Positions 32,330-33,997 of a DNA stretch of 33,997 nucleotides are shown here, piece after piece (within the stretch, counting starts at the first letter, position 1; each line of letters opens with the position of its first letter). The DNA comes from Bacteroidota bacterium (lineage in GTDB: Bacteria; Bacteroidota; Bacteroidia; Chitinophagales; Chitinophagaceae): positions 1 to 33,997 of the forward strand of contig RDXK01000107.1 in assembly GCA_004292605.1 (NCBI GenBank). The letters are read 5' to 3'. The notes below the pieces were generated by a model that was given only the letters and a program-made list of their open reading frames with translations, did no database searches and had not been told where the DNA came from. The translations under genes were made by a program, and so were the position numbers.

Positions 32330-32353
32330 TCATGTTCCTTTTATTGTAATAAG

Positions 32354-32386
32354 GCTGCTTTCCCTTAAACGGAAGGCAGCTTTTTT
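32354..32386 (+). terminator. Intrinsic terminator of the T9SS surface protein gene
   Basis: GCTGCTTTCC (32354-32363) pairs with GGAAGGCAGC (32371-32380), with one G-U wobble, and is followed by six T at 32381-32386. It lies 25 bp after the stop. Confidence 0.88.
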
Positions 32387-32581: not shown

Positions 32582-32589
32582 CATTTTCG

Positions 32590-32663
32590 TCGGGTAGACT
32601 GGATTTGAACCAGCGACCCCTTGCACCCCATGCAAGTACGCTACCGGGCTGCGCTACTACCCG
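32590..32663 (-). tRNA. tRNA-Pro, anticodon GGG
   Basis: A complete cloverleaf on the minus strand. The acceptor arms CGGGTAG and CTACCCG pair over 7 bp. The D-stem is GCGC/GCGT, the anticodon stem CTTGC/GCAAG with loop ATGGGGT (anticodon GGG), and the T-arm GCTGG-TTCAAAT-CCAGT. The discriminator is A at 32590. CCA is not encoded and must be added after transcription. Confidence 0.95.
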
Positions 32664-32708: not shown

Positions 32709-33407
32709 TTATAATTGTCGCACTTTAATATTTCGGTACCACACATCATCACCATGATCCTGCAAGGCTATTTTGCCTTTTTGGTAGATGCCAAAACCAG
32801 GGTAAGCGTTGAATTTACTTTCCGCCACTAACTTTTTCCAAGCAGCATCCCACAGGGTAGTGGTTACTACCACCGTACGGTTTAATTTAAAAGTAAGTAC
32901 GCCTTTATTACAAATTACTTCGGCGTGGTTCCATTGGCCTGCGGGCTTCACGGTTTCCTTACTGCATGGTATTAAATCGTACAAATCGCCAGCACGGTGT
33001 TTAAAAATCTTAGCATCTGGGTGGCCATTGTTATCAAGCACTTGCATTTCGGGCCCTGTCATCCATGGGTATTTGTACTGCAAAGTATCTTCATGCACAA
33101 AAAACATAATGCCACTGTTGCCGTTTTTGGCAATTTTCCATTCTAACGATAAATGAAAGTTGGTAAACTCTTGTTCAAACACAATATCGCCACCATCTGC
33201 ACTTTGCCAGTCGTTCTTGGCACTAGCATCTAAATGTAGCGTCCCGTTTTCTACTTTCCAGCCTTTTCCAATAGTGGTTTTACCGTAGTTGTGCCAGCCT
33301 TGGGTATTTTTTCCGTTAAATAATAGTTGCCAGCTTTTATTCACTTTTTGGGCGGTACCGGCTAAGGATATAGAAGCTGCTAGGGCACTTATAAATATCT
33401 TTTTCAT
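32709..33407 (-). CDS. DUF1080 (3-keto-disaccharide hydrolase-like) exported protein
   Basis: A 232-residue protein with a signal peptide (M-K-K-I-F-I, hydrophobic core, A-G-T-A-Q). The start at 33407 lies 1 bp after the cytochrome c stop; an ATG at 33419 would overlap that gene. Family marks of this concanavalin-like fold are L-F-N-G-K-N-T-Q-G-W, the central S-G-I-M-F-F-V and P-E-M-Q-V-L-D segments, and the C-terminal I-A-L-Q-D-H-G-D-D-V-W-Y-R-N-I-K. By family knowledge DUF1080 proteins act on 3-keto-glycosides in the periplasm. The operon with a cytochrome c and a sugar isomerase/epimerase-like gene fits that role. Confidence 0.87.
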   Translation of the reverse strand: MKKIFISALAASISLAGTAQKVNKSWQLLFNGKNTQGWHNYGKTTIGKGWKVENGTLHLDASAKNDWQSADGGDIVFEQEFTNFHLSLEWKIAKNGNSGIMFFVHEDTLQYKYPWMTGPEMQVLDNNGHPDAKIFKHRAGDLYDLIPCSKETVKPAGQWNHAEVICNKGVLTFKLNRTVVVTTTLWDAAWKKLVAESKFNAYPGFGIYQKGKIALQDHGDDVWYRNIKVRQL

Positions 33408-33408
33408 G

Positions 33409-33795
33409 TTATTGAGCATCTTTTAATAGTAAAACATATTTCACCATGGCTATGGCATCCGCCTCGGAAATTTGTGGGTGAGGCGTCATAGGTACTTGGC
33501 CCCACACACCGCTTCCACCAGCAATAATTTTGCCCGCAAGTAGTTTATGGGTTTCCGCATTGTTAGGGTATTTTTTGGCAATATCTACATAGCTAGGACC
33601 AATAGCTTTTTCATTTATTTTATGGCAGGTAAGGCAATCGCTTTGGCCCACCAAAGTTAACCCAGCCTGGTAGTCGGGGTTAGCACTCAAGTCTACCACC
33701 GGCTTTTCCTCTGTGGTAGTTTTTTGTTCTGTATTGCTTCCTGCACAGGCGGCAAAAATGGCCAGCAAAGTAGCCGCTACCATTGTTTTTTTCAT
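33409..33795 (-). CDS. Lipoprotein class I cytochrome c
   Basis: A 128-residue protein. A lipobox F-A-A-C with the modified cysteine at residue 17 indicates membrane anchoring on the periplasmic side. One heme site is present, C54-L-T-C57-H58, with the axial methionine probably M103 in V-P-M-T-P-H, and the helices around K-Y-V-L-L-L close the fold, as in c551-type carriers. It probably accepts electrons from a periplasmic dehydrogenase. In this operon the natural donor would be a sugar dehydrogenase encoded outside the window (inference). It lies 19 bp after the sugar isomerase gene. Confidence 0.9.
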   Translation of the reverse strand: MKKTMVAATLLAIFAACAGSNTEQKTTTEEKPVVDLSANPDYQAGLTLVGQSDCLTCHKINEKAIGPSYVDIAKKYPNNAETHKLLAGKIIAGGSGVWGQVPMTPHPQISEADAIAMVKYVLLLKDAQ

Positions 33796-33814
33796 ACAAT
33801 CGTTGTTTTATTTA

Positions 33815-33997
33815 TTAAATTCCTAATATCTTTTTGTTCAGTTCAGTATCTATGCCACTGCTAGCAAAATCGTCAAAAGCCTTATCGGTTACTTGTATAA
33901 TATGGTTGGCTACAAAAGCGGCACCTTCAGTAGCACCTTGTACCGGGTGCTTTATACAGCATTCCCATTCTACTACCGCCCAGCCACTAAAATTGTA
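33815..33997 (-). CDS. Sugar phosphate isomerase/epimerase (TIM-barrel), C-terminal part only
   Basis: The frame runs off the right edge; only the last 60 residues are visible. They contain W-A-V-V-E-W-E-C-C-I-K-H-P-x-x-G-A-x-E-G-A and a final helix with H-I-I-Q-V-T-D-K-A-F-D-D-F, which is the characteristic end of the xylose isomerase-like TIM-barrel group often annotated as sugar phosphate isomerase/epimerase in Bacteroidota. W-E-C-C-I-K holds the glutamate expected near the metal site. It is upstream in the same operon as the cytochrome c and DUF1080 genes. Confidence 0.75.
   Translation of the reverse strand, partial: YNFSGWAVVEWECCIKHPVQGATEGAAFVANHIIQVTDKAFDDFASSGIDTELNKKILGI

Follow-up and report, generated by a model that had tools for sequence, protein, structure and literature searches.

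LacABC consists of a GMC subunit, a cytochrome c and a small subunit. LacABC and a DUF1080 protein were reported together in lactose utilization in Caulobacter crescentus and several Bacteroidetes, and the combination also occurs in Pedobacter, Indibacter, Algoriphagus and Halomonas; both LacABC and DUF1080 are described as periplasmic (Price et al. 2022, PMC9007349). Two epimerases and a reductase are given a tentative role only in the corresponding passages of that paper. In A. tumefaciens, a pathway of oxidation, elimination, hydration and reduction is encoded in a GlycDH/AtOGE/AtHYD/Gfo operon (Bitter et al. 2023, PMC10628242). According to the same report, GlycDH is expressed together with a 'TAT-pathway signal protein', the structure 8BVK is that of AtOGE, and AtHYD is a putative sugar phosphate isomerase for which first, preliminary data point to hydration of 2-hydroxy-3-keto-glucal. 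The three genes described here very probably form one arm of a pathway for non-hydrolytic glycoside breakdown, in a genome in which the other genes for the proposed scheme were found as well.

The operon and its three genes

The stretch of DNA analysed (the window, 33,997 nucleotides) is the entire contig C287 of a genome in 331 contigs, and its right edge falls inside a TIM-barrel gene, here called HYD. On the minus strand, positions 32709-33997 contain three co-directional open reading frames that run from the HYD C-terminus through the cytochrome c to the DUF1080 gene:

33815..33997, minus strand: HYD, C-terminal 60 codons (60 aa); reading frame open at the contig end
33409..33795, minus strand: predicted class I cytochrome c lipoprotein (128 aa), PF00034
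32709..33419, minus strand: PF06439/DUF1080 protein (236 aa); likelier start at 33407

The preliminary description had called this a tight operon, its genes separated by 19 and 1 bp, and the reading frame coordinates bear this out: 19 bp (33796-33814) separate HYD from the cytochrome gene and 1 bp separates the cytochrome and DUF1080 genes when the ATG at 33407 is taken as the start. This ATG agrees with the start of a relative in a genome of the same genus (locus L033) and is likelier than the start at 33419. The operon is made up of these three genes with no oxidoreductase inside, since a divergent DEAD-box gene abuts its first gene, HYD, on contig C270. The number of promoter-like sites was at or below chance, both in the window stretch (4 found, 4.1 expected) and upstream of HYD (1 found, 2.9 expected). 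Terminator-like sites in the window stretch numbered 5 against 2.2 expected; the strongest (32351-32383, plus strand) follows the neighbouring gene on that strand. Immediately downstream, the operon is followed by a tRNA-Pro(ggg) gene (32589-32663, minus strand), a region that shares 83% identity with an 89-base stretch of contig C49. A plasmid search gave 21 matching records, every one below 60% identity.

The DUF1080 protein matched PF06439 (3keto-disac_hyd) over residues 30-234 of 236 with 166.9 bits (E 7e-49), far above the cut-off of 26.8, and its identity as first described was thus upheld. NCBIfam returned no family for it. Matches to the solved structures 8v31, 8rr2 and 8tda were found at E-values of 8.7e-46, 9.2e-45 and 9.8e-45, respectively. 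The N-terminus is signal-like, of the Sec type, and 21 positions were invariant in an alignment of 32 rows that included the protein of the window. It was the only PF06439 protein over the cut-off in the genome; one more match, on contig C185, was below it. As judged from its family, the protein is probably a 3-keto-glycoside-cleaving enzyme.

The cytochrome c matched PF00034 (Cytochrom_C) over the Pfam cut-off (E 5.9e-8) and solved c-type cytochromes (best E 4.1e-21); in NCBIfam it matched below the cut-off only. Its features are a lipobox Cys17, the heme motif C54-x-x-C57-H58 and Met103 as the likely sixth ligand, and the CxxCH heme motif and axial Met of a class I cytochrome c are therefore both found. 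Residues C17, C54, C57, H58 and M103 were invariant in 31 aligned cytochromes, that of the window included. By these sequence features it is a class I cytochrome c of the c551/c552 type and a predicted lipoprotein.

HYD is present in the assembly in two pieces, residues 1-221 at positions 3-665 of contig C270 and residues 291-350 at the window edge (L033 numbering); the piece on C270, from the same genome, is the N-terminal part of about 221-223 codons, and the residues between both pieces, about 69, are absent from the assembly. The 60-aa piece alone matched no Pfam family, and PF01261 was assigned to the N-terminal continuation and to the full-length L033 relative. The L033 HYD, from the same genus, matched PDB entry 8ro4, '2-hydroxy-3-keto-glucal hydratase', over its whole length (E 2.7e-163), with 228/349 residues identical (65%). 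The two pieces of this genome were identical to 8ro4 at 139/220 and 37/60 residues (62-63%), and across the 27 loci with a HYD match above 400 bits, L033 included, identity to 8ro4 was 63-74%. We take 8ro4 to be the A. tumefaciens enzyme of Kastner et al. 2024. Given this closeness to 8ro4, the earlier label of sugar isomerase/epimerase-like gene has to be replaced by that of a likely hydratase for 2-hydroxy-3-keto-glucal, which is a specific and testable one.

Probable partner genes beyond the contig end

Since the window is a whole contig, its right flank is not directly readable. The contig order C287-C270-C201-C266 was based on split genes, not reads. Contig C270 starts with HYD, followed after ~100 bp by the divergent DEAD-box gene, a DAHP synthase/chorismate mutase gene, the N-terminal part of AroB and the contig end. 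Contig C201 opens with the C-terminal portion of AroB. EPSP synthase and chorismate synthase come next, then a symporter (PF03825), the TIM-barrel protein TIM292 and, last, a GMC oxidoreductase (GMCa) represented by its N-terminal 416 codons. Contig C266, read on its reverse strand, starts inside a GMC, of which it has the C-terminal 125 codons, and continues with a gluconate-2-dehydrogenase-subunit-3 gene and the eliminase-like TIM gene TIM280. The AroB N-terminal domain had one match in this genome and the GMC C-terminal domain had two, on C266 and C69. Measured against relatives, the unassembled gap amounted to about 41 residues in AroB and, in GMCa, to 18 residues against L066, 19 against L046 and L045, and 51 against L065.

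The order inferred in this way is DUF1080, cytochrome c and HYD (minus), the DEAD-aro block (plus), then the symporter, TIM292, GMCa, subunit 3 and TIM280 (plus). The symporter would lie ~8 kb beyond the window, the GMC ~10 kb, because AroB spans C270 and C201 and GMCa spans C201 and C266, and the last gene would end at ~13 kb. By the split genes, the GMC and small-subunit genes are about 10-12 kb off and outside the operon, and the DEAD-box/aro block between both arms measures about 6.5 kb. Two other placements of the GMC were rejected. It is not the next gene in the operon, for C270 has the divergent DEAD-box gene beside the HYD start, and a GMC unlinked to the operon was dropped since the split AroB and GMCa place it ~10 kb rightward. 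A DUF952 domain (PF06108) is found at the C-terminus of chorismate synthase in the two genomes of this genus that were examined, namely this one (L131:1676-2995, G000 C201) and G001 (L152:6484-7821, C129).

The Gfo gene was found on contig C69, where a second GMC (GMCb) with its own subunit 3 precedes it and an FMN-binding protein gene comes after it. A fragment on C274, in which Pfam detected the FAD-binding N-terminus only, is probably the N-terminal part of this second GMC. These findings bear on the expectation that an oxidoreductase of GMC or Gfo/Idh type would lie to the right. A GMC, a subunit-3-like gene and an MFS symporter are placed there by the split genes, and the operon itself holds neither oxidoreductase nor uptake gene, both being near it; the Gfo/Idh part of the expectation failed, its gene being elsewhere beside the second GMC pair. 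The genome thus has the gene set for the scheme (GMC, subunit 3, Gfo, eliminase-like TIM and symporter).

Gene neighbourhoods in relatives

In the same-genus genome G001, the GMC arm adjoins the Gfo-HYD-cytochrome-DUF1080 arm (L033, contig C79), so that GMC, small subunit, cytochrome c and symporter are all beside the DUF1080 operon. The DEAD-DAHPS-AroB-AroA-AroC block, which in the present genome would stand between both arms, is found there on another contig, C129.

The best 80 of at least 584 confirmed DUF1080 relatives, a sample picked by DUF1080 similarity, were compared after their reading frames had been labelled with eleven cluster proteins. Neighbours were counted wherever 3.5 kb or more of upstream sequence was present, in 68 loci (the other 12 of the 80 were left out), HYD being counted within 3.5 kb, and the counts are lower bounds because contigs are short. 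The cytochrome was found within 2.5 kb of DUF1080 on the same strand in 31/68 loci, mostly just upstream of it and in L089 downstream. Among these 31 loci, HYD, Gfo, GMC and subunit 3 were present in 23 each, TIM280-type genes in 21, TIM292 in 19 and the symporter in 16, compared to 3, 10, 3, 2, 4, 2 and 1, respectively, of the 37 loci without the cytochrome. The association with the cytochrome gave a Fisher p of 2.8e-8 for HYD and an identical value for GMC, which overstates independence because some of the loci are closely related to one another (Rufibacter, Chitinophaga, Sediminibacterium). The association is loose, as 8/31 cytochrome loci had no HYD and 8/31 no GMC. These findings indicate that, in the best 80 of at least 584 relatives, genes for GMC, subunit 3, Gfo and eliminase-like TIM proteins are grouped around those for HYD, the cytochrome c and DUF1080, and the association of these last three noted at the outset goes beyond chance. 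In one locus on a contig labelled Oxalobacteraceae (L051), DUF1080, GMC, subunit 3, TIM292 and HYD were present and no match to this cytochrome was found within the locus; this betaproteobacterial bin reflects either lateral transfer or mis-binning.

It is very unlikely that the operon is the leftover of a broken cluster, with a cytochrome now used in general respiration and with DUF1080 and HYD genes that are decaying or serve to scavenge keto-sugars produced by other cells. The operon does stand apart from the dehydrogenase and Gfo genes in this genome, and L040, likewise, has HYD, cytochrome and DUF1080, with Gfo missing from the surrounding 5 kb and GMC from the surrounding 10 kb. However, the partner genes are present, in frames without stops as far as the contigs run, the heme motif and conserved core residues are retained, and the cytochrome query had a single match in this genome at E <= 0.001, namely itself.

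It is very unlikely that DUF1080 acts on unoxidised polysaccharide as an ordinary secreted endo-glycosidase and is co-transcribed with the cytochrome and TIM genes by accident. Such an activity has a precedent in THTE_1561, a PF06439 protein described as an endo-xanthanase/lichenase (cited in Price et al. 2022, PMC9007349), and most solved PF06439 relatives bear the names 'glycosyl hydrolase' or 'sugar hydrolase' only. In contrast, BT2157, also a PF06439 protein, is a 3-ketotrehalose hydrolase (Price et al. 2022, PMC9007349), and the 16 loci with DUF1080 at 290 bits or more, among the best 80 of at least 584, had the cytochrome in 16, GMC in 13 and HYD in 11.

Breakdown of a cyclitol or anhydrosugar (inositol, levoglucosan) with the TIM protein as an inosose dehydratase-like enzyme is highly improbable, for the L033 HYD scores 67 bits against myo-inosose-2 dehydratase (TIGR04379) and the Gfo found here 115 bits against levoglucosan dehydrogenase (NF052479), both far under the curated cut-offs of 290 and 650 bits, HYD matches 8ro4 at full length, and a PF06439 gene has no obvious role there.

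Proposed pathway and comparison with known systems

The 3-keto-glycoside pathway suggested in the preliminary description is supported by the likeness of HYD to 8ro4, by PF06439 and by the co-occurring GMC, subunit 3 and Gfo genes. In the proposed scheme, a glycoside would be oxidised at C3 by a periplasmic GMC dehydrogenase with its Tat-exported subunit-3 partner, encoded elsewhere in the genome, and the electrons of the GMC would pass to the operon's lipoprotein cytochrome c. The labile 3-keto-glycoside would then be cleaved by the secreted DUF1080 protein and probably also by the Tat-exported eliminase-like TIM protein, and the symporter would import either the 3-keto-sugar or the glycal derived from it. 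HYD would then convert 2-hydroxy-3-keto-glucal to 3-keto-glucose by hydration in the cytoplasm, where the Gfo/Idh enzyme would reduce 3-keto-glucose to glucose. Gene identities, order within contigs, N-terminal signal-like motifs and co-occurrence were the direct basis of this scheme, and we infer from them the order across contigs, all reaction steps, the substrate, the transported species and, because the dehydrogenase is outside the operon, the coupling of GMC to cytochrome. The role of likely electron acceptor suggested for the cytochrome c is supported. The ten Pedobacter DUF1080 genes for which no lactose phenotype was reported, with redundancy given as possible (Price et al. 2022, PMC9007349), count against the scheme.

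Export signals were scored in two ways. With the stricter hydrophobicity score, an export signal was found in TIM280 in 1/12, TIM292 in 2/19, SUB3a in 10/19 and SUB3b in 4/4 proteins, a signal-like stretch in 27/34 cytochromes and 24/32 DUF1080 proteins, and no signal in HYD (0/23) or Gfo (0/23). This score was judged too strict, as it missed most Tat signals, and a Tat motif test was devised after it, by which Tat-like N-termini were found in subunit 3 (23/23), TIM292 (19/19) and TIM280 (10/12), and in neither HYD (0/23) nor Gfo (0/23). The signal tests of TIM280 covered homologues above 200 bits only. By these patterns, the cleaving enzymes DUF1080 and TIM280 look exported, and the hydratase HYD and the reductase Gfo look cytoplasmic. 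The term 'periplasmic', which had been applied to the whole operon, holds for the cytochrome and DUF1080 and not for HYD, none of whose 23 relatives had an export signal.

TIM280 matched 8bvk (E 5.1e-16) as a distant relative and was closer to 8tcd, 8tcs and 8tct. We tentatively put forward, as a possibility on the doubtful side, that in these Bacteroidota the pathway is split across the inner membrane, with periplasmic oxidation and beta-elimination by the Tat-exported AtOGE-like TIM protein and DUF1080. The symporter would then import the unsaturated 2-hydroxy-3-keto-glycal itself, and hydration and reduction would follow in the cytoplasm. If this were true, glycal uptake would be an unusual transport step.

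The locus offers candidates for roles in the pathway of Price et al. 2022. Compared to LacABC-DUF1080, this operon holds only the cytochrome c, DUF1080 and the hydratase-like gene; the GMC and subunit 3 would lie behind the DEAD-box/aro block, and Gfo is elsewhere. The Agrobacterium operon is resembled in a HYD near 8ro4 and in the AtOGE-related TIM protein and Gfo gene of this genome, and its GlycDH with the 'TAT-pathway signal protein', as described by Bitter et al. 2023 (PMC10628242), recalls the GMC/subunit-3 pair. The AtOGE-related protein of this genome has a Tat-like N-terminus. In contrast to the Agrobacterium operon, DUF1080 and a lipoprotein cytochrome c are added here, and the genes are distributed over several loci. 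The system itself is already described in print, and this is otherwise an ordinary example of it, in which the gene cluster is split.
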